DNA from: a virus
Reading direction: 5' to 3' (one strand)
DNA length: 36,465 nt
IMG/VR virus record: IMGVR_UViG_3300026518_000029
Span: 1 to 36,465 of that record
In this document: piece by piece, positions 1,538 through 17,528 of the stretch
How the letters are laid out: every line of letters begins with the position of its first letter
Numbering within the stretch: position 1 is the first letter of the stretch
Program-made: the position numbers and the translations under genes
Notes under the pieces: model-generated
Told to the model about the DNA's origin: nothing
The model's database searches: none
What the model saw: only the letters and a program-made list of their open reading frames with translations

Positions 1538-1898
1538 TGTCCCGCCTCAAATCATCAAGCTTACTTGCTTCAATATCATCAATAGCCAATGTTGCATAAC
1601 CCACAATATCTTGCCATGTATCAACGTGCATAGGGTCTCCGTTTAGTAGTCTTGCTACTTTGTGCATAATCATATCAAGTGCCTCTTTGTGTGGGTGTGA
1701 TAGGTGGTCTCCGTTTGCTGTTACTGCCTTTTTAAGATACTGTGATATTTTTGCACCCTCTCTAAAGTCTCCATGTGTAGCGTTTCTCTCTTCTAATGTG
1801 TCGTGTATTGTTTTCATTTGTGCCTCCTGTGGCTTTATTTGATTTTGGCTCTTATTGAGCGATATTTGTTCCAACTTGTCTAAATAGTTATCTTTCAT
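1527..1898 (-). CDS. DUF6378-type phage early protein
   Basis: The central and C-terminal parts match the pattern I associate with the DUF6378 family: THGDF near residue 43, then KEALDMIMHKVARLLNGDP and HVDTWQDIVGYATLAI. This helical domain is common in phages and resembles all-alpha nucleotide-pyrophosphohydrolase-like folds, but its activity is not established. The ATG at 1898 forms an ATGA overlap with the muramidase stop and gives a 27-residue Gln/Lys-rich extension before the usual family start; an internal ATG at 1817 would give the more typical length. A role in nucleotide metabolism during replication would fit the operon but is inference. Confidence 0.75.
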   Translation of the reverse strand: MKDNYLDKLEQISLNKSQNQIKPQEAQMKTIHDTLEERNATHGDFREGAKISQYLKKAVTANGDHLSHPHKEALDMIMHKVARLLNGDPMHVDTWQDIVGYATLAIDDIEASKLDDLRRDNAV

Positions 1899-2452
1899 GC
1901 CGTAACTCCTGCAACTCTATTTAATCCCCATCCATACACAAATCTTTCATCTTTTTCTCTGGTTTGTGCAAGTGATATGTAAAACTCCCCTTGTAGTGCA
2001 TTAAGATATGATGTTAAAACTCTCATCCCCTCTCTGCCACGCTTATTTGAGTATGCGTAAAATGCTCTCATGGTATTTGCTCCAATATCTCCATCAACGG
2101 ATACATCTTTGTAGAGTCTGCCTCTGTCATTTAGTGCGTTAAGCACTCTCTGTAGATGTTTCCCTGCTTGTTCCACTCCCATATTCACGGCTTGTTCAAA
2201 CATTTCATGTGCAAACTCATATCCACCTGTTTTAAGTAGCTCATCCCCACGTATTCTGTTCCAATATCTACGTCTATAAATATCAATCGCTATGTCAAGG
2301 GGTAGCTTTTTCATTTTGCCGTTCCACCCAAATTTACGTGCAACTTTTTTAGTGATACCAAACTTTGTTTTGCCCCCACTATCAAGGCTATCATTTGTGT
2401 ATCCACCCTCTATACCTACTACACTCATTATAATTTCATCTCTGCTATGCAT
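1895..2452 (-). CDS. GH108-family muramidase (phage endolysin)
   Basis: Peptidoglycan-cleaving muramidase. The N-terminal catalytic domain (about residues 5-95) carries IEGGYTNDSLDSGGKTKFGIT, in which Glu15 is the expected catalytic acid. The C-terminal half (about 100-170, with LNALNDRGRLYKDVSVDGDIG) matches the peptidoglycan-binding domain usually paired with GH108. The length of 185 aa is typical and there is no signal peptide, so release should depend on the holin encoded near 12 kb. The start at 2452 overlaps the upstream stop (TAATG). Its position is odd: it lies in the early operon, two genes after the replication initiator and far from the holin/spanin cassette, so timing or dose would need separate control. 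It could alternatively serve another wall-remodelling role. Confidence 0.88.
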   Translation of the reverse strand: MHSRDEIIMSVVGIEGGYTNDSLDSGGKTKFGITKKVARKFGWNGKMKKLPLDIAIDIYRRRYWNRIRGDELLKTGGYEFAHEMFEQAVNMGVEQAGKHLQRVLNALNDRGRLYKDVSVDGDIGANTMRAFYAYSNKRGREGMRVLTSYLNALQGEFYISLAQTREKDERFVYGWGLNRVAGVTA

Positions 2453-3063
2453 TAAAACTCCCTTACTGTTGATTTTGCTAATTTCACAACATCTCTATTC
2501 GCACTCTTATCTTCCAATGCTGTTTGAGATGCACCTCTTATCGCGATTGCTTTAAAAATCTCAAACAACTTATCTTCCAATGCATCACCTACACTGCTTG
2601 ACTCTTGTAACTGTAGGCACTCTCGCAAATTTCCAATAGAATTTAATATCGCTAGGTCTCCATCTTTGAAGTAATATTCGTTTGACCCTTTTCTTTTGAA
2701 ATTGTGAAAGTTCAACTCTTTGTGCGAATACCCTAAATATTTTCTCTTGTATTCAGACTCTCTAAATGCCGTTTTAAGCTCTTTTACCTTGTTAGCCAGC
2801 TCAACTGCCCTACCTCTACCCTTTTCTATCTCTAAACGTGCATTACGTTCGTTTAAACCTACTTTATACCTCTTAGTAAGCTCTAAGAATTTCTGATACC
2901 CAGTCATAAAGCTTAGGTCTATGTGATTATGGTGTTTTTCAATGTAGCTTAGGTACGATGGAATATCTACACCTATCATCTCTTTTGTGAGTCTATCTGC
3001 TACAAGTGCATCTGCATCTTTGATGTTTAGGACTCTGATTATGTGATTTATTGTGTTTTTCAT
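2452..3063 (-). CDS. hypothetical early protein (203 aa)
   Basis: I do not recognise this protein. It is predicted mostly helical and strongly charged, with a basic middle (about residues 70-120, ELTKRYKVGLNERNARLEIEKGRGR) that could form a coiled coil. Its start overlaps the end of the replication initiator by 4 bases (ATGA) and its stop overlaps the muramidase start, so it is embedded in the operon. In many phages the gene after the initiator encodes a helicase loader or other replisome partner. There is no Walker A motif, so an ATPase loader is excluded; a helicase-recruiting adaptor is possible but only by position. Confidence 0.7.
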   Translation of the reverse strand: MKNTINHIIRVLNIKDADALVADRLTKEMIGVDIPSYLSYIEKHHNHIDLSFMTGYQKFLELTKRYKVGLNERNARLEIEKGRGRAVELANKVKELKTAFRESEYKRKYLGYSHKELNFHNFKRKGSNEYYFKDGDLAILNSIGNLRECLQLQESSSVGDALEDKLFEIFKAIAIRGASQTALEDKSANRDVVKLAKSTVREF

Positions 3064-3767
3064 TCCAACACCTCAACATCAACTGTATTTGTAGGGTGTT
3101 TATCAAAATAGGCATCTACTGCATCGTAAGATTTTTGAAGCCCAGTATGTTTTTTTTCGTTTGGGGAAAACAGCCCCTGGTATCCGTTTGCTATAGAATG
3201 TGTGACTTTACGCTCAAACTCTATTGGGTCCTGCTTGTACTGCTTCAGTAGTGTTCGTATTGTTATTTCTCGGATTGGCTTTTTAATCTCTAATCTGTAC
3301 TCAATCCAATCTTTTAAGATATTCGGAAGTTCAACAGATTTTTTTTCTTTTTCTTTTTCTTTTTTCTCTCTAACTCTATCTAAGTTCTCTCTTATAGGTT
3401 GCACCGTATCCTTTTTGATACGTCTAGCGTATCCTTTTTGATACGTTGGCGTATCCTTTTTGATACGCTCTTTTTGTTGCACCGTCTCCTTTTTAACCCC
3501 TATTAAGACGTGCCATTTTTGAGTTGTTCTGAGGTGGTTTTTCTTATTTCTTTTTAGGTACCCTTCATTGATAAGTACCCCAATCAATTTCTTGTATTGA
3601 ACAAGTGATATATCATGATGTTCTGCAAGGTCTGCTCTTGCATCTTCACAAAATCCACTCTCCGTAACTGCTTGAATAAAGTGTATATTTTCACAAATCA
3701 TCCACTTTGTAGGGTTTAATCCTGCCTCTGTCATTGCTACAAAATCTATTGTATAGTATCTCTTCAT
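3060..3767 (-). CDS. phage replication initiator (winged helix plus DnaD-like C-terminus) containing the origin
   Basis: Likely the origin-binding initiator of the phage. Residues 1-90 form a winged-helix region common to phage replication proteins. Residues 95-145 are a basic, repetitive linker (two RIKKDT copies, then an EKEKEKKS run). Residues 148-201 (WIEYRLEIKKPIREITI, then NGYQGLFSP) match the C-terminal replisome-organiser segment of phage O/DnaD-like proteins. The gene contains three perfect 18-bp iterons plus a degenerate fourth (3405-3495) next to a polypyrimidine tract, the arrangement of lambda O and its internal origin. The start at 3767 follows AAGGGAA at good spacing and overlaps the stop of a 41-aa ORF. 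Recruitment of a host helicase is inferred from the family. Confidence 0.8.
   Translation of the reverse strand: MKRYYTIDFVAMTEAGLNPTKWMICENIHFIQAVTESGFCEDARADLAEHHDISLVQYKKLIGVLINEGYLKRNKKNHLRTTQKWHVLIGVKKETVQQKERIKKDTPTYQKGYARRIKKDTVQPIRENLDRVREKKEKEKEKKSVELPNILKDWIEYRLEIKKPIREITIRTLLKQYKQDPIEFERKVTHSIANGYQGLFSPNEKKHTGLQKSYDAVDAYFDKHPTNTVDVEVLE
3339..3370. other. polypyrimidine tract beside iterons, probable DNA unwinding element
   Basis: This stretch is a nearly pure run of T and C on the plus strand (purine-only on the coding strand, encoding a Lys/Glu run). It sits about 35 bp from the iteron array inside the initiator gene. In lambda-type origins an easily melted segment lies beside the initiator-binding iterons. 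Its position suggests the same role here; that is inferred from the arrangement. Confidence 0.5.
3405..3495. repeat. origin iterons: three perfect 18-bp palindromic repeats plus a degenerate fourth
   Basis: CGTATCCTTTTTGATACG occurs exactly at 3405-3422, 3428-3445 and 3450-3467, starting 23 and 22 bp apart, about two helical turns. Each copy has inverted 6-bp arms (CGTATC/GATACG) around a T-rich centre. A degenerate fourth copy begins at 3483, and both outer copies are preceded by the same TTGCAC sequence. The copies lie in the initiator gene but are read in different frames (RIKKDT in two, YQKGYA in the middle one), so the conserved unit is the DNA and not the protein. This is the expected layout of a replication origin bound by the protein encoded around it. 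Confidence 0.75.
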
Positions 3768-3889
3768 TTTCGTTCCCTTGACATATCACAAGAAAATAGA
3801 TATAATGCACTCGTATTTATTTTTGTGCCTCCAACGCATGATAATACATTGTGGCAGGTTATGCTGTCACTCTTCAATATACTAATCAT
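3764..3889 (-). CDS. possible small protein (41 aa) between cro and the initiator
   Basis: This short ORF fills the gap between cro and the initiator. It starts at an ATG at 3889 with a GGGAG site 6 bases upstream, and its TGA overlaps the initiator start (ATGA). It encodes a small protein with three cysteines and no recognisable motif. Against it, the same stretch holds a perfect consensus promoter on the opposite strand and a hairpin (3851-3870), so the DNA may be regulatory and not coding. It may act as a leader that couples translation to the initiator. Confidence 0.4.
   Translation of the reverse strand: MISILKSDSITCHNVLSCVGGTKINTSALYLFSCDMSRERK
3778..3806 (+). promoter_or_regulatory. 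perfect consensus sigma-70 promoter, antisense to the early operon
   Basis: TTGACA at 3778-3783 and TATAAT at 3801-3806 are separated by exactly 17 bases. This is the full bacterial consensus, pointing rightward. Transcription would start near 3813 and run antisense across the 41-aa ORF and cro, then sense into the cI repressor gene at 4292. This is the position of a lambda PRE-like establishment promoter or of an antisense RNA promoter. I see no strong terminator before cI. The match is seen directly; the role is inferred. Confidence 0.7.
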
Positions 3890-3892
3890 CTT

Positions 3893-4129
3893 CTACTCCC
3901 TTTGTTTTTTGTTGTAGTCAATATCCTCTTTTAGAAATGATTTTCCAAAAAAAGTTTTCTGTGTCTCCACGCTTAAAAAAATATCCATCGGAACGTTACA
4001 AGCCTCTGCTATTCGCTTTGCTGTAATTAGTTTTAGATTTTTTTTGCCATTTAAGTACCTTGACATCGTGGCAATATTTACCCCAGACATCTTGCACATA
4101 TCACGTTGTGTGATTATTCTGTCGTTCAT
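3893..4129 (-). CDS. Cro-like helix-turn-helix regulator
   Basis: A 78-aa DNA-binding protein of the XRE/Cro family. The HTH region spans about residues 5-50: ITQRDMCKMSG (first helices), VNIATMSRYLNGKKN (turn and recognition helix), then ITAKRIAEACNVPMDIFL, the common stabilising helix. There is no C-terminal protease or oligomerisation domain, as expected for Cro. It is the first gene of the minus-strand early operon and divergent from cI, the classical switch arrangement. The start at 4129 has an AAGGAG site 5 bases upstream. Its promoter region contains a dyad operator candidate at 4143-4158. It probably represses cI and/or its own promoter to favour lytic growth. Confidence 0.8.
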   Translation of the reverse strand: MNDRIITQRDMCKMSGVNIATMSRYLNGKKNLKLITAKRIAEACNVPMDIFLSVETQKTFFGKSFLKEDIDYNKKQRE

Positions 4130-4142
4130 TTTTACTCCTTAA

Positions 4143-4163
4143 TTGAACTTAGGTACAACTATA
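4143..4163 (-). promoter_or_regulatory. cro promoter -10 with overlapping operator
   Basis: On the minus strand, TATAGT (4163-4158) is a plausible -10 for cro; the -35 is weak (AT-rich TATTAA at 17 bp), as often seen in AT-rich genomes. Directly downstream is TTGAACTTAGGTACAA (4143-4158), an imperfect dyad in which 12 of 16 positions match their own reverse complement (TTGnACnTAnGTnCAA). A repressor bound here would block the transcription start of cro. Confidence 0.6.
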
Positions 4164-4234
4164 CACTTTATTTTCTTAACTTAATATTAAATTATGTGAT
4201 TGTGCTAAAGATATATTAATAATTTATTTAACTA

Positions 4235-4263
4235 TTGACCTAAAATACAATTTATGTTATAGT
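4235..4263 (+). promoter_or_regulatory. cI promoter with second operator-like sequence over its -35
   Basis: TTGACC (4235-4240), a 17-base spacer and TATAGT (4258-4263) form a strong rightward promoter about 25 bp before the cI ribosome site. The sequence TTGACCTAAAATACAA (4235-4250), covering the -35, matches 9 of the 12 defined positions of the operator motif seen at 4143, so Cro or CI binding here could control repressor synthesis. The promoter call is fairly secure; the operator call is tentative. Confidence 0.65.
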
Positions 4264-4291
4264 GTGTTTATCAAAATGAAAGGATTTAAAG

Positions 4292-4891
4292 ATGAATATA
4301 CATGAGAAGATACAGATGCTATTGAAGAAAAAAGGTAGAGGTTCGCAAAAAGAACTTGCAGGGATATTGGGTGAAGATAAGACATATCTCAATAAATGGG
4401 TTAATGGTATAAAGCCTGTGCCACAACAACATCTACTTGGAACTGCACTATTTTTAGGAGTCACAGTAGATTACTTGATGGACGATAATCAAGAGATACC
4501 ACTCATCAAGCACGTACCCCTTATAGGTGAAGCATCGTGCGGTGTTCCTGTTAATGGCTTTTATGGAGATGGGGATGTAGAGTACGTACCTGCCACATCG
4601 GACATCTATCTTGATACTGCATACGCTGTTAAAGCGGATGGAGATAGTATGTTGCCTACTATTTCACATGGTGAGATTGTTTACTGTGACACAGGAAAAC
4701 CACCCTCTGACAATACCATAGTACACTATACCTTTGATGGAGATAGTGGCATAAAACGCATTCGCAGACAGAAAGATGGCTCAATAATGCTATTGCCAGA
4801 TAATCATGACTACTCTCCAATTATCATTCCCAAAGAGAGAACAGAAGATATACTTCTTGCAAGATGCACTAAGGTATTTAAAAACATATAA
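4292..4891 (+). CDS. CI-like prophage repressor with autocleavable S24 peptidase domain
   Basis: This protein should maintain lysogeny by repressing both early operons, and be inactivated by RecA-stimulated self-cleavage. Residues 1-62 form an HTH domain (GSQKELAGILGEDKTYLNKWVNG). Residues 70-199 form a LexA/UmuD-type S24 domain: catalytic Ser119 in GDSMLPTISHGE, catalytic Lys155 in SGIKRIRR, and a likely cleavage site Cys83-Gly84 in GEASCGVP. Cys-Gly is the bond cut in UmuD, whereas Ala-Gly is usual in LexA and lambda CI. All catalytic residues are present, so it should be SOS-inducible. The start has an AAAGGA site 7 bases upstream and its own strong promoter; it is divergent from cro. Confidence 0.9.
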   Translation: MNIHEKIQMLLKKKGRGSQKELAGILGEDKTYLNKWVNGIKPVPQQHLLGTALFLGVTVDYLMDDNQEIPLIKHVPLIGEASCGVPVNGFYGDGDVEYVPATSDIYLDTAYAVKADGDSMLPTISHGEIVYCDTGKPPSDNTIVHYTFDGDSGIKRIRRQKDGSIMLLPDNHDYSPIIIPKERTEDILLARCTKVFKNI

Positions 4892-6042: not shown

Positions 6043-6660
6043 ATGACACTAGAACAATTTTTAGGAAAAATCGGCAAAACAGAGAGTAATATTATTGAGT
6101 ATCGTGGGGATGAGTCAATCAAAGCTGTTGAGCAAAACGGTGATGCACTACAATATGTGAAAGACCAAACAGAAGATATTTGTATCAAAGCTGTTGAGCA
6201 AGACGGTTATGCACTACGATATGTGAAAGACCAAACAGAAGATATTTGTATCAAAGCTGTTGAGCAAGACGGTTATGCACTACGATATGTGAAAGACCAA
6301 ACAGAAGATATTTGTATCAAAGCTGTTGAGCAAAACGGTTATGCACTACAATATGTGAAAGACCAAACAGAAGATATTTGTATCAAAGCTGTTGAGCAAA
6401 ACGGTGATGCACTACAATATGTGAAAGACCAAACAGAAGATATTTGTATCAAAGCTGTTGAGCAAGACGGTGATGCACTACAATATGTGAAAGACCAAAC
6501 AGAAGATATTTGTATCAAAGCTGTTGAGCAAAACGGTGATGCACTACGATATGTGAGCAAACTTGTTTTTAGTGCTAAAGCTAAAATTGAGCTTACTATT
6601 AGTGACATTGAAACTAAGTTCGGATGTAGCGTTGTGATTGTGAGTAAAAAAGATGAGTAA
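6043..6660 (+). CDS. tandem-repeat protein resembling DUF4116 (seven 22-residue repeats)
   Basis: After a 27-residue leader, the protein consists of seven 22-residue units of the form AVEQ(N/D)G(D/Y)AL(Q/R)YV followed by KDQTEDICIK (the last unit is partial), then a 35-residue tail. The pattern resembles DUF4116 repeats found in phages, giant viruses and bacteria, and predicts a helical-hairpin solenoid likely to bind a protein partner. Unit-to-unit differences are confined to three codons, all amino-acid changing. The strong GGAGG site before the ATG at 6043 suggests good expression. It lies between the exonuclease and RecT, an unusual place for an accessory gene; the function is unknown and a role in binding a host protein is inference. 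Confidence 0.75.
   Translation: MTLEQFLGKIGKTESNIIEYRGDESIKAVEQNGDALQYVKDQTEDICIKAVEQDGYALRYVKDQTEDICIKAVEQDGYALRYVKDQTEDICIKAVEQNGYALQYVKDQTEDICIKAVEQNGDALQYVKDQTEDICIKAVEQDGDALQYVKDQTEDICIKAVEQNGDALRYVSKLVFSAKAKIELTISDIETKFGCSVVIVSKKDE
6124..6555 (+). repeat. six and a half tandem 66-bp repeats within the repeat gene
   Basis: Units start at 6124, 6190, 6256, 6322, 6388, 6454 and 6520; the seventh stops after 36 bp. Apart from three single-base sites per unit (AAC/GAC, GAT/TAT, CAA/CGA) the copies are identical, including every third codon position. The unit keeps the frame, so gain or loss of copies by slippage or recombination would not disrupt the protein. Copy number probably varies between relatives. 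Confidence 0.95.
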
Positions 6661-12431: not shown

Positions 12432-15400
12432 TTAAAACCAACGCTCTTTACTTTCTTTTTTCTTTCTTGCTTTTTTGACTTGTTTAGAGTCAAATGTCAA
12501 TGAGTTCACACCAAATTGTTTAAATAAGTTTTGGAGTGTTGAGCGTGGAACAATATCTCTTGATATTTTTCTGTTTTTCTCATCTCTTACTAAACTCTCA
12601 ATAAGGTCTATCCCACTTCTCACTTGACCCGGCAATGGAGTGAGTCCACTTGCATATTTTGCCTTATCGTAAAGCTGTTGCGATTTAGGCTTGTTGTCAT
12701 ACGTTACTGGTCGTCCGTTGTATAACTTCGTGCCACTAAGTAACCCAAGTAGTGTTTGTGGCAATCCATTCATAGCTGTTTCTCTACCCATCTGTAGTGG
12801 GTGCATAAGTTGCATGAATGGGTTTATTTTATCCATCTTTACAGTTGTTATCTCATTACCATCTTTCCATACTGGTATCCTTGCCATTTTTGCATCATCT
12901 GGCAACTCGTCTGAATATGGGTTACCTATACCTGTTAGTGCATAGGATATGGCATACAATGATGCAATAGCACCTGTGATACGAGCAGAACCCTTTATAC
13001 TACCGCCAATTCTTAACATCTTTGGTAGAGTATAATAAGTCCAAGATATAAATGGTGTGATACCACTATCTCTTAGTGTTCTCCATGCAGGAGCCATAGG
13101 CTTAGAGTAGTCTGGCATAATGGCTAAAGCACCCTCTCTTGACTTCTCTACACTCCAACCATGCTCTCTAAGGTGTGTGTACATAGCAAGTTTACTTACA
13201 CTGTCTCCACCTTGATAAGCACTTGTTAATTTTTCATCCACTTTTTTTAAAAATGATTTGTATGTGGTATGTGTCTCTGACTCACCCACACGTATATCTT
13301 CAAGCCTACTTGTATTTAATAGCCCCTGTTCTTCTGCTTCCAAGTAATACTTCATCTCATTTTTGAGTGAACTAAGCTCACTTTTTTCTACATTTGATAA
13401 CGCCCCAATTGCCTCCTTGTCTAACAGTTCGGTTAGTCTTGGAGCTTTTGACATTTTTATAAGTGATTTGCTGACCCCACCCACAACGTCTAAGGTACTC
13501 ATACCAGAGCCGTGCATTAAGAATGGGTTAGCCAAGGCATTGTTTATGTGAGTAGGTATGTTCCAAACAGTCAAAGCTTTTTTGACGGTACTTAGATACT
13601 TCATCCAAAGTGCTTTTGCTTCTGCTGTAACATCTCCCTCTCTTTGCATAATAGAGTCTGCTAATGCACCAATATCATCTGCTACGTCTTTTCTCACCCA
13701 CTGACCAGATAACGCACCAAATCTTGGATTTTTTTCAAGTTGCACAAAACCTTGCTGATTTAGTGCTTCTTTAGTAGCTAGTTTGGCTTCTGCTTTTGGT
13801 ACGATAGCACCCTCTAATTTTGCTACCTCTTGTAGTAACTTTCCGTGCTCCACCATTTGAGCCATTTTCATGAACGTCTCTGGTACAGTAATTGAAGCAT
13901 CCACTATCTCTCCCATCTCTATACGCTCTGCTTTAGTCCAGTCTCTTTCAAGTGTTACTTTTCCTGCGAGTACACTCTTTTGTATTCCCCCATCTTTTTT
14001 ATCTTTACCTATTAAAGACTCATCCAACTCACCATCTGCTACACGTCTATCATACTCTGCTTGTGAGATAGTCTCTGTATGTCCTCTTCTCTTCATTATA
14101 GGCATACCAAAGTTCCCGCCTGTAACACTATGGATAAGATTTTTTTCATCATCTCCAAAGTGCTTTTCATAAAGTCTCTTTAAGTATCTATCTCCCCACG
14201 CATCAATCTGCTCATCATCAAACACATTAAGTTTTCGCATCTCATCTTGCAAATCTTTGATAGTCTGTCTAATATTATCTCCAATCTGCCTTACTTCTTT
14301 AGATACAGAAGAGGGGTGAACATCACCCACGATATACTCTTGTATATCTTTTCTCATCTGCTCTGGCAGTTTGCTAAGTATTCTACCCATACGCTGTGCT
14401 TGTATAGCTACTTTATGCTTACCTGCTGTAGCATTTGCACGTAGCTTATGATAACCCCCAGAGAATGAGTCAAGGAATGATGCTTTAAAGCTTGATTTTA
14501 ATCCTTGTGATAAGTCCGTCCACTCTTTGACATCATCTTTATTTAATATTTTTTCTAAATGGTCTAAGTTTTTATTTGAATTTTCTGATAATTTTATAAA
14601 TCCATCCCTCATATTTGGAATTTTGGAATTTTGTGGTATAATACCATCATAAGCACCCGTATTATCCACTCTATTTGAGTGAGAAGAGTGAGGACTCCCA
14701 TCCTCTAGCGGGTGTTTATAAAACAACAATTTATCATCATCTACCTCCAAATATCTCTTTAGTTTTTTAGGACTTATATCAAAAAGTGTTGTATTTACAA
14801 GTCTGCCATTCTTGTCTATAGCGTATCCTGCTAAATGCACAATATTATTATTTTTATCTTTAAATGGCTTATAAAAAACCGCTGTGTCTTTACCTTTATA
14901 GGTGTCACTCACAACAAAAAGAGGATTTTTTAATGTGGGTATAAATCCTCCTGAATACCAAATCCTATTCTGATTATGCGTATTAGCAACAAAATGGTTA
15001 AAGCTACCTTTTGGATTAATTGCTATTGCTCCAATAGGAGTATCTAGCATACCACCATTGAGATACTTTTCTATTTCAGATGCATTATTTACAGGAAGTG
15101 GTAAAGGCTCTGCATATTTCGCCACTCGAACAGTATCAACTTTTCCATCATGAATAAAGTCTTTTTCTAGTGCTTTTGCGTGGTCAGATTTGCTTCTGGA
15201 AAAGTCAAGCGTTGCATCTTTAGGGTCTATCCCTGTAGTATCAAAGTCCTTTAGTCTACCATCAAGCTCTGCCATAAATGCACTATTGTATGCCTCATCG
15301 CTATGTTCCTCTGCACCAAGTGTTTCAGAGTTGTTGTATGGCTCTATAAGCCCTCTCTCTTCTGCACTTAATCCATGTCTTGCCTGTACCTCTCTTGCTT

Positions 15401-17528
15401 CTATCTCCCCTGCAATCTTCTTGTAGTTATTGTACGCTTCTGCTGAACGGTTATTTTTTAGATAATCAAGGTCGTTTCGGTAGTTCATAGCATCAAGTTT
15501 TGATAATTCTCCCCTCTTTTCAAGGTCATAGATTTTGCCATCAACTTGTCTTAACATAGCATCAAAGTTCCCACCACCTGCAAAGCCCTCTTTGTTCTGT
15601 ACCCAGTGCTGTACTTCATGCAAAATTGAACTTGCTAACTCATCTTTATTTTTAAACTTGTTAGATAGTGTGATAACATTTTCTCCATCAAAGGTAGCGT
15701 GTGCATCCATATTCTTATCAAACTTCACGACAACATTTTCCAACTGTGGGTAGTTGCTAAATAGCTCATCGTGTTTCATAAGCTTACCAAGCGTTGTATG
15801 CCCTTTTTGAGACAATTCAACCACTGCATTAGGGTTTACTTCTGCAACGCTATCATTTATTTCAAATCTCTCTTGTCCGTCATATTTTCCTACATGGGTA
15901 GTTCTACCCTCAAAGCCTTTAGCTTTCTTACCTGCAAAGACCCCAAGCTGAACACCATCTGTAGGCATTTTATCACCCACTTTAATATCGTTATCCATCA
16001 CCCAGCTTCTAACTTTTTCAAAGGCTTTAGGGTTCGCTTTTCTTAATGCTCTCAATCCACTTACTCCAAGAGTACCTGCTACCATACCTTGTATAAATTT
16101 GTCTGCCATTTGGTCTGTTAGGTCTTTGTTTGGGTCATAGCTACCGTCAAATAGCCCACTCCCTGCATTGACTGTACCTGCTCCAAAACCACCTGCTAAG
16201 TTGTGTCCTGCGTTTGAAAATAGTGCTTGTCCTGTTTCACTGTCTATAAGGTCGCCATTTTCATCTATGTGTGTTTCTTGTATTGGTGCTTCTTGTGTAT
16301 TCCAATTAGGGTCATTCTCCAATCTGTCAATATCGTCACGTAGTTTTGCTTCAATCTCTGGGGTTATATTACCCTTATCAATTTTCTTAACATCTGCCTT
16401 AGTAAGATTAAAACCTTGATGATAGTTAGTCTCACCATTAGCCCCTGCTCTTGCGTATGTTCCGTCTGGGTTCATCCAAGATGCGGAACCTCCACCAACT
16501 CTATCATTGTAAGTTTGAGATGCGTATCTGTCTCTTGCCAAGTCTATTGCTTCTTTGGCTCTAGGGTGTGAAAAAATATCCTCTGTTGGTACTGTTGCAT
16601 TACTTTTTTCCCTTATAAGTTCTGGCTGTGGAGTCTTGCTGTTAATGATGGTATTATATTGCTCTTTTAATGCTTCTGCTTCCACTCTTGAAAAACCTAC
16701 TCTTTCTGGGTCGTTAATAAGCGTATCAATAGCCCTTTGTGCGACTTCCTTACCATCACCCACAAGATGTTCAACATCCTTGATAGCATTGGTAACTTTC
16801 CCATCGGTGAGTCCTGCGATAACCCCATTGAGTAGAGATACAAAGCCTGTACTCACAGCATCTTCTTGACTCTTTTGTGCATCGGTTAAATCATCATTAC
16901 CATAGTTCTTAGCTTTAGACGTTGCATATCCTACACCTGCACCTGCCATCATCGACTTACCAACTCTTGTTAGTTTTCTGCCTTTGTTTATAACCCCTGC
17001 TGGTGTTAGGTTTACTGGGTCTAATATCATCTCTCCTGCTACGTGTGCTACTTTGTTGTCTTCTGTCTCTATCTCATTTTGTTTTCTTTGGACGTTCCAA
17101 TATTTAGCATTATCATCAAAAAAGCTTGTCTGGTACTTTTTAGGCAAAATAGCCTTAGATAGTTTTCCAAGCCCCTTATTTATAGATGCTCCATACTCAT
17201 CTATGTTGTGGGTAAATCCCTTTCCAAACGAGACTGCATCGCTGTAAGAAAATGGCAATACTGTAGCTAAGGCATCGTCTGGTTTATGGTATGCTTTTTT
17301 ATTTGCTTCTGCTTCTGCTATCTGTGCTTTTGATAAGCCGTTGCGTGGGTCGTTTGGGTTTTGTTTGGTTGGCTTCAAATCATCGAACATTCTTTGTTTG
17401 GTTGGCTTCAAATCATCGAACATTCTTTGTTTGGTTGGCTTCAAATCATCGAACATTCTTTGTTTGGTTGGCTTCAAATCATCGAACATTCTTTGTTTGG
17501 TTGGCTTCAAATCATCGAACATTCCCAT
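12432..17528 (-). CDS. giant polyvalent ejected virion protein (1698 aa) with zincin-like and PBECR-like domains
   Basis: This is the type of very large late protein that podoviruses package and eject with their DNA. Residues 3-57 are five identical 11-residue units MFDDLKPTKQR. Residues about 560-660 contain a metallopeptidase-like segment ending LHEVQHWVQNKEGFAGG, with zinc motif His637-Glu638-x-x-His641, matching large polyvalent domain LPD23. Residues about 800-940 (DTAVFYKPFKDKNNNIVHL and on) resemble PBECR nuclease domains. Residues about 1280-1560 (MKYLSTVKKALTVWNIPTHINNA split by linkers) resemble the C-terminal LPD38 region. There is no tape-measure-like gene elsewhere. The start at 17528 has an AAAGGA site; each repeat also begins with an in-frame ATG. 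Domain names are from pattern recall. Confidence 0.75.
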   Translation of the reverse strand: MGMFDDLKPTKQRMFDDLKPTKQRMFDDLKPTKQRMFDDLKPTKQRMFDDLKPTKQNPNDPRNGLSKAQIAEAEANKKAYHKPDDALATVLPFSYSDAVSFGKGFTHNIDEYGASINKGLGKLSKAILPKKYQTSFFDDNAKYWNVQRKQNEIETEDNKVAHVAGEMILDPVNLTPAGVINKGRKLTRVGKSMMAGAGVGYATSKAKNYGNDDLTDAQKSQEDAVSTGFVSLLNGVIAGLTDGKVTNAIKDVEHLVGDGKEVAQRAIDTLINDPERVGFSRVEAEALKEQYNTIINSKTPQPELIREKSNATVPTEDIFSHPRAKEAIDLARDRYASQTYNDRVGGGSASWMNPDGTYARAGANGETNYHQGFNLTKADVKKIDKGNITPEIEAKLRDDIDRLENDPNWNTQEAPIQETHIDENGDLIDSETGQALFSNAGHNLAGGFGAGTVNAGSGLFDGSYDPNKDLTDQMADKFIQGMVAGTLGVSGLRALRKANPKAFEKVRSWVMDNDIKVGDKMPTDGVQLGVFAGKKAKGFEGRTTHVGKYDGQERFEINDSVAEVNPNAVVELSQKGHTTLGKLMKHDELFSNYPQLENVVVKFDKNMDAHATFDGENVITLSNKFKNKDELASSILHEVQHWVQNKEGFAGGGNFDAMLRQVDGKIYDLEKRGELSKLDAMNYRNDLDYLKNNRSAEAYNNYKKIAGEIEAREVQARHGLSAEERGLIEPYNNSETLGAEEHSDEAYNSAFMAELDGRLKDFDTTGIDPKDATLDFSRSKSDHAKALEKDFIHDGKVDTVRVAKYAEPLPLPVNNASEIEKYLNGGMLDTPIGAIAINPKGSFNHFVANTHNQNRIWYSGGFIPTLKNPLFVVSDTYKGKDTAVFYKPFKDKNNNIVHLAGYAIDKNGRLVNTTLFDISPKKLKRYLEVDDDKLLFYKHPLEDGSPHSSHSNRVDNTGAYDGIIPQNSKIPNMRDGFIKLSENSNKNLDHLEKILNKDDVKEWTDLSQGLKSSFKASFLDSFSGGYHKLRANATAGKHKVAIQAQRMGRILSKLPEQMRKDIQEYIVGDVHPSSVSKEVRQIGDNIRQTIKDLQDEMRKLNVFDDEQIDAWGDRYLKRLYEKHFGDDEKNLIHSVTGGNFGMPIMKRRGHTETISQAEYDRRVADGELDESLIGKDKKDGGIQKSVLAGKVTLERDWTKAERIEMGEIVDASITVPETFMKMAQMVEHGKLLQEVAKLEGAIVPKAEAKLATKEALNQQGFVQLEKNPRFGALSGQWVRKDVADDIGALADSIMQREGDVTAEAKALWMKYLSTVKKALTVWNIPTHINNALANPFLMHGSGMSTLDVVGGVSKSLIKMSKAPRLTELLDKEAIGALSNVEKSELSSLKNEMKYYLEAEEQGLLNTSRLEDIRVGESETHTTYKSFLKKVDEKLTSAYQGGDSVSKLAMYTHLREHGWSVEKSREGALAIMPDYSKPMAPAWRTLRDSGITPFISWTYYTLPKMLRIGGSIKGSARITGAIASLYAISYALTGIGNPYSDELPDDAKMARIPVWKDGNEITTVKMDKINPFMQLMHPLQMGRETAMNGLPQTLLGLLSGTKLYNGRPVTYDNKPKSQQLYDKAKYASGLTPLPGQVRSGIDLIESLVRDEKNRKISRDIVPRSTLQNLFKQFGVNSLTFDSKQVKKARKKKESKERWF
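17358..17522 (-). repeat. five tandem 33-bp repeats encoding MFDDLKPTKQR
   Basis: On the plus strand, five units begin at 17522 and step down by 33 bp (ATGs at 17522, 17489, 17456, 17423 and 17390). All are identical at DNA level except the last codon of the final unit. Perfect identity means recent or ongoing copy-number change. The unit keeps the frame, and each unit starts with ATG without its own ribosome site. Confidence 0.95.

Follow-up and report, generated by a model that had tools for sequence, protein, structure and literature searches.

Initiation of DNA replication at iterons that lie within the initiator's own gene has been textbook knowledge since lambda. The origins of lambda and the Stx phages, each comprising iterons and an AT-rich tract, sit in the middle of O, and the O protein binds each iteron; three iterons are enough for lambda (as cited in PMC7466680). 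In SPP1, oriL lies within gene 38 and has direct repeats bound by the initiator encoded by that same gene, plus an AT-rich unwinding element (PMC6316719). The lambda iterons are annotated in J02459 at 39034, 39054, 39078 and 39101, i.e. with a spacing of 20, 24 and 23 bp.

Here we analysed a viral DNA of 36 465 bases (the window throughout), in which three identical dyads lie inside an O-like initiator gene. We found no mapped origin for this phage lineage in open-access papers. The features on which the argument rests are:

3060-3767, minus strand: O-like replication initiator, 235 aa (PHROG 678, O-like, E 5.9e-9)
3338-3381, no strand: purine tract, rich in A, as read on the sense strand of the initiator gene (pyrimidines on the plus strand), a candidate DNA unwinding element from its composition and stability
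3405-3422, no strand: iteron 1, 18-bp dyad CGTATC-N6-GATACG, encoding RIKKDT
3428-3445, no strand: iteron 2, 18-bp dyad CGTATC-N6-GATACG in the other frame, encoding (T)YQKGYA
3450-3467, no strand: iteron 3, 18-bp dyad CGTATC-N6-GATACG, encoding RIKKDT
3476-3494, no strand: degenerate half copy GTTGCACCGTCTCCTTTTT, in register with 3398-3416
2452-3063, minus strand: 203-aa ORF, candidate helicase loader, with an ATGA overlap with the initiator stop and in the position of lambda P or phage DnaB
815-1291, minus strand: single-strand DNA-binding protein of the same leftward operon (SSB 6.2e-29)
3893-4129, minus strand: Cro-like HTH regulator (HTH_3 3.8e-9), opening the leftward operon that crosses the candidate origin
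4292-4891, plus strand: divergent CI-type repressor (HTH plus peptidase S24, from profile matches)

The dyad array and the adjoining tract

The dyad (CGTATCCTTTTTGATACG) is present as three identical copies with perfect 6-bp arms and a 6-bp centre, each reading CGTATC-CTTTTT-GATACG on the plus strand. The start-to-start distances are 23 and then 22 bp, and all three dyads and the half copy fall in the ORF at 3060-3767 (minus strand). An earlier, sequence-only reading of this DNA had described three perfect 18-bp palindromes 22-23 bp apart within the initiator gene, and this was confirmed at 3405-3467. Allowing up to three mismatches, there were no further copies in the 36 465-base window (0.03 expected), and none of 100 shuffled windows contained three dyad matches. 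The dyad was also absent from all of the structural relatives G001-G012, and the exact 16-mer GTATCCTTTTTGATAC occurred in 51 IMG/VR contigs as a single copy apiece, with no array. A search of the window for DnaA boxes gave one, which is the chance level, and an Rfam search around the dyad site gave no credible match.

Read along the initiator sense strand, the three copies begin in frames 0, 1 and 0. As the earlier reading had stated, the spacing is not a multiple of three, and two copies thus encode RIKKDT whilst the middle one encodes YQKGYA. When the codons were resampled with the protein preserved (20 000 draws), out-of-frame dyad pairs averaged 10.1/18 identity and never reached 18; the full dyad score was obtained in 0/20 000 synonymous resamplings of the window initiator. 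The copies are identical up to the edges of the dyad and no further, so they are not explained by a simple tandem duplication of recent date. The resampling, together with third-position conservation in a proxy family (see below), supports the claim that selection acts on the DNA and not on the protein. The frame argument itself held in part: the multi-frame iterons are real but not unusual, as lambda's four iterons begin in frames 0, 2, 2 and 1 of gene O, and several frames are also used in nine other O-like genes.

A polypyrimidine tract had been said to adjoin the dyads, and we could verify this: no other 40 nt of the window are as rich in pyrimidines as those in the tract at 3338-3381, and in stability the 50-bp stretch from 3339 ranks among the lowest 1.3%. 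On the sense strand, the 40 nt that begin 27 nt past the last iteron are 93% purine and 80% AT. The lambda counterpart, measured past the third iteron at +20, is 80% purine and 70% AT, and also A-rich.

GC skew was rejected as origin evidence because it tracks the gene strand. Its minimum near 4 kb and its maximum near 11 kb both coincide with gene strand switches, and the sense-strand skew is positive across the whole window. Cumulative GC skew, which had been proposed as a check on the origin, is therefore unusable here; the change at ~4 kb follows gene orientation and is uninformative on the origin.

The layout matches that of lambda ori (J02459 39034-39118) in order, orientation, period and position. 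Both have 18-bp dyads with an A-rich centre, a spacing of 20-24 bp and copies in several frames; in both, the iterons lie mid-gene in the initiator linker, with a purine tract rich in A coming next on the sense strand; and in both, the initiator gene belongs to an early operon. The same spacing, linker place and tract uphold the earlier claim of a lambda-O-like layout with a distinct iteron. The window differs from lambda in its iteron sequence, in having three full copies rather than four, and in a partner gene that is not recognisable as P. SPP1 oriL also has repeats inside the initiator's own gene and an AT-rich unwinding element in the origin (a candidate element in the window), whereas SPP1 differs in having a second origin, oriR, and gp38 as its initiator; the window has a single array.

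The initiator, its operon and its relatives

The 235-aa initiator has a predicted N-terminal winged helix-turn-helix (wHTH), a repeat-bearing linker and a C-terminal helical domain common to lambdoid O proteins, with the dyads forming codons 101-121 between the predicted HTH region and the C-terminal domain. The phrog_678 (O-like) profile is promiscuous, matching 14/14 control genomes at E<=0.01; lone matches to it are thus weak evidence for an initiator, and the window protein was therefore split for the profile search. The C-terminal part alone matched PHROG 678 at E 1.3e-8, and residues 142-203 aligned with six lambdoid-type O proteins in hhalign (probability 97.2, E 4.4e-11). By profile similarity, this part is assigned to the O-like helical domain of lambdoid O proteins; it is of the KO-TP1/phiES15 type, unlike that of lambda O. 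The N-terminal wHTH is weakly predicted (HTH_27 E 0.36; phrog_6336 1.5e-5; hhalign to the GTATC family described below, probability 15%). PF04492 (Phage_rep_O, the lambda O N-terminal family) did not match the window initiator at E<=1, whilst lambda O itself, as a positive control, scored 5.7e-36; on this measure, the window initiator is not a member of that Pfam family. A predicted structure of the initiator (pLDDT 47) was too poor for a fold search.

We did not find a close relative of the initiator carrying the same repeats: its sole viral match (L001) has a different linker, and a genome-contig scan with the initiator as query gave no matches. G003 (81% portal identity) is, of the structural relatives recovered for most of their genome, the closest; its sequence does not include the initiator region. 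Among named phages, the relatives of the portal protein are Helicobacter pullorum prophages and Campylobacter phages (~32%), from which we infer that the host likely belongs to the Campylobacterota.

The candidate helicase loader (2452-3063) had no family match and no relative in IMG/VR, and its AlphaFold model was unusable (pLDDT 36.9). In the syntenic contigs G005 and G013, a DnaB-like ATPase is encoded at most two genes downstream of the initiator. In the window, the SSB gene and a RusA gene lie further downstream in the leftward operon. This early replication operon also contains a GH108-type endolysin gene (1895-2452, minus strand), which lies not among the late genes but between SSB and the initiator with its partner ORF.

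Upstream of the initiator, at 3778-3806 (plus strand), is the sole perfect TTGACA-17-TATAAT of the window; 4/100 shuffles contained one. This promoter sequence faces away from the start of the initiator gene and is antisense to the operon of cro and the initiator. In G005 there is an equivalent promoter in the equivalent place (L196:2158, plus strand) with a conserved block, TTTATnTTTnTGCCTCCAACG, downstream, although the two initiators are ~20% identical. The pair are candidates for an OOP- or pRE-like small RNA.

Other repeats were seen in these genomes. Close to its terminase genes (L070 13500-13680), G003 has repeats of the AAGCGTTAAGCG type in DNA that seems not to code for protein. They may serve in packaging or as some other control site; the window stops short of the corresponding region. 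A gene at 6043-6660 (plus strand), also present in G003, consists of 22-aa repeats (VKDQTEDICIKAVEQ...) in in-frame 66-nt units. A large late protein at 12432-17528 (minus strand) has five N-terminal 11-aa repeats (MFDDLKPTKQR), and its counterpart in G003 has three repeats of different sequence in the same place.

Linker repeats in other initiators

We compared 16 initiators: those of the window and lambda (O); those of G005, G010, G012, G013, G014 and G021, which are viral contigs with genes in common with the window; and eight tblastn matches from named phages. For each gene, the best triple, made up of 16-mers spaced by 18-32 bp, was scored against 150 synonymous resamplings. In 12 of the 16, the linker triple beat all 150 (lambda, window, G005, G010, G013, G014, G021, phiBB, KO-TP1, Klebsiella phage 6, phiES15 and AbaSI1). 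The triples were out of frame in 11, G005 being the lone passing initiator with in-frame (18-nt) repeats. The triples of Rac YdaU, 683R6, Hali and G012 failed the test, so linker iterons are not universal in O-like initiators. The O-like initiators of KO-TP1 (Klebsiella), phiES15 (Cronobacter), vB_AbaSI_1 (Acinetobacter) and phiBB (Fusobacterium) have a C-terminal domain similar to that of the window protein (tblastn), and share with it linker repeats at 20-24 bp spacing, out-of-frame copies and an A-rich purine tract. Each has its own iteron sequence, and these repeats were detected here from sequence.

Applied to 83 genes of the window and its relatives, the triple test returned out-of-frame triples in three initiators and in one spurious ORF, which overlies apparently non-coding repeats. 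When 2.35 Mb of fetched loci were screened strictly, with three perfect dyads required, four arrays emerged, including that of the window; shuffled controls had none.

To look beyond these genes, IMG/VR was scanned for two tandem GTATC-N6-GATAC dyads without protein information. The scan returned 53 contigs, many with 3-8 dyads near the middle of an ORF, 18-45 bp apart but mostly 21-24. Eight of nine distinct ORF groups tested matched replication-initiator profiles. An L214-type DNA helicase gene has a repeated dyad pair at 25-bp spacing, apparently an unrelated coincidence of coding. In six of six representative records, the dyads were confined to one array. With a scrambled-arm control (GTCTA-N6-TAGAC), there were 12 contigs; the ORFs with three or more dyads (4/4) were likewise replication initiators, O-like or of another type. 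Dyads arranged in tandem with this period within a phage ORF thus mark an origin well, whatever the sequence of the arms. The half-site of the window iteron, GTATC-N6-GATAC, is not peculiar to this phage but recurs in tandem in many other phage initiator genes.

As we found no close relative of the window initiator, conservation was followed in a proxy, the eight-member L230 family. Across the family, identity within the iteron arms is 0.958 over all positions; at third codon positions it is 0.938 in the arms compared with 0.630 at the other third positions, values somewhat inflated for the arms because the columns were picked where most members have a dyad. In members with five dyads, one departs from the frame of the others. 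The expectation that iteron DNA should be conserved above its flanking codons was borne out in this proxy family.

The L230 family and L213, L218, L258 and L260 have the same half-site and spacer length as the window, in 3-8 copies in the initiator linker. Their proteins, however, are not clearly homologous to the window protein beyond the iteron-encoded stretch, and the C-terminal domains differ. Common ancestry of the window initiator and the L230 family, suggested by blast (E down to 1e-8), was rejected: without the iteron-encoded linker, blast gave E 0.04-0.07 and hhalign a probability of 15%. As the similarity is carried by that linker, we claim no shared wHTH family. GTATC-N6-GATAC could still be a recurrent iteron class, common to initiators with unrelated C-terminal domains, although we regard this as rather unlikely. 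If true, the wHTH and iteron array would be an exchangeable origin module among phages, and metagenomic phage origins could become readable from out-of-frame dyads alone.

A probable lambda-type origin and its alternatives

The three dyads are very probably the replication origin of the phage, with lambda-type initiation by the O-like initiator: an array constrained at the DNA level occupies a fixed place in the linker beside the tract, and other O-like initiators have the same layout. We infer that the initiator binds, the DNA melts, helicase is recruited and replication starts at the dyads, as follows. The N-terminal winged helix would bind CGTATC-N6-GATACG, each dyad probably taking up one dimer, and three sites some two helical turns apart would build an O-some-like complex. 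This complex would destabilise the A-rich tract of purines next to it (3338-3381); the C-terminal domain may then recruit host or phage helicase machinery, perhaps via the protein of gene 2452-3063. As in lambda, early transcripts heading leftward from the cro side would cross the origin.

Repressor operators, too, are typically dyads of this size, and an initiator bound within its own gene could act as a roadblock. The dyads might then be sites at which the initiator, Cro or CI blocks or tunes transcription, with replication beginning elsewhere. This seems very unlikely, as no copy, even with 2-3 mismatches, is present in the cro/CI promoter region (4130-4291) or elsewhere, the array is 300 nt inside a gene, and the one non-initiator parallel for out-of-frame repeats among the 83 genes is a spurious ORF. 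We can give hardly any credence to a repeat at the protein level, whereby slippage would have amplified a flexible basic linker (KKDT-type motifs) that has no function as DNA. Linkers of this type are repetitive, KK(E/D)TVQ recurs in frame at 78 nt and G005 has in-frame 18-nt repeats; yet in the window the frame and the encoded residues of the middle copy differ from those of the other two, every copy is itself a perfect dyad, and synonymous resampling never yields the array.

The dyads could instead act in RNA, as hairpins of the leftward transcript or as terminators of a rightward antisense transcript. The sense RNA does fold better than all shuffles (z -6.1), and the plus-strand half-sites followed by CTTTTT resemble terminators. 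However, any inverted repeat yields such a fold; the dyad centre varies freely in other phages, mostly without a T run; and there is no rightward gene upstream of the dyad site. As an action in RNA would also leave the spacing of about two helical turns and the adjoining purine tract unexplained, we consider it highly improbable.

Under the origin reading, the intragenic design is that known from lambda and SPP1; what is new is the iteron array and the lineage. It provides a precise, testable origin for a group of temperate phages with structural genes like those of Helicobacter pullorum and Campylobacter phages. The comparison also shows a simple and general rule of position: in the scans made here, likely origins of very different phages were flagged by an initiator linker that contains tandem dyads, out of frame and spaced by some two helical turns.
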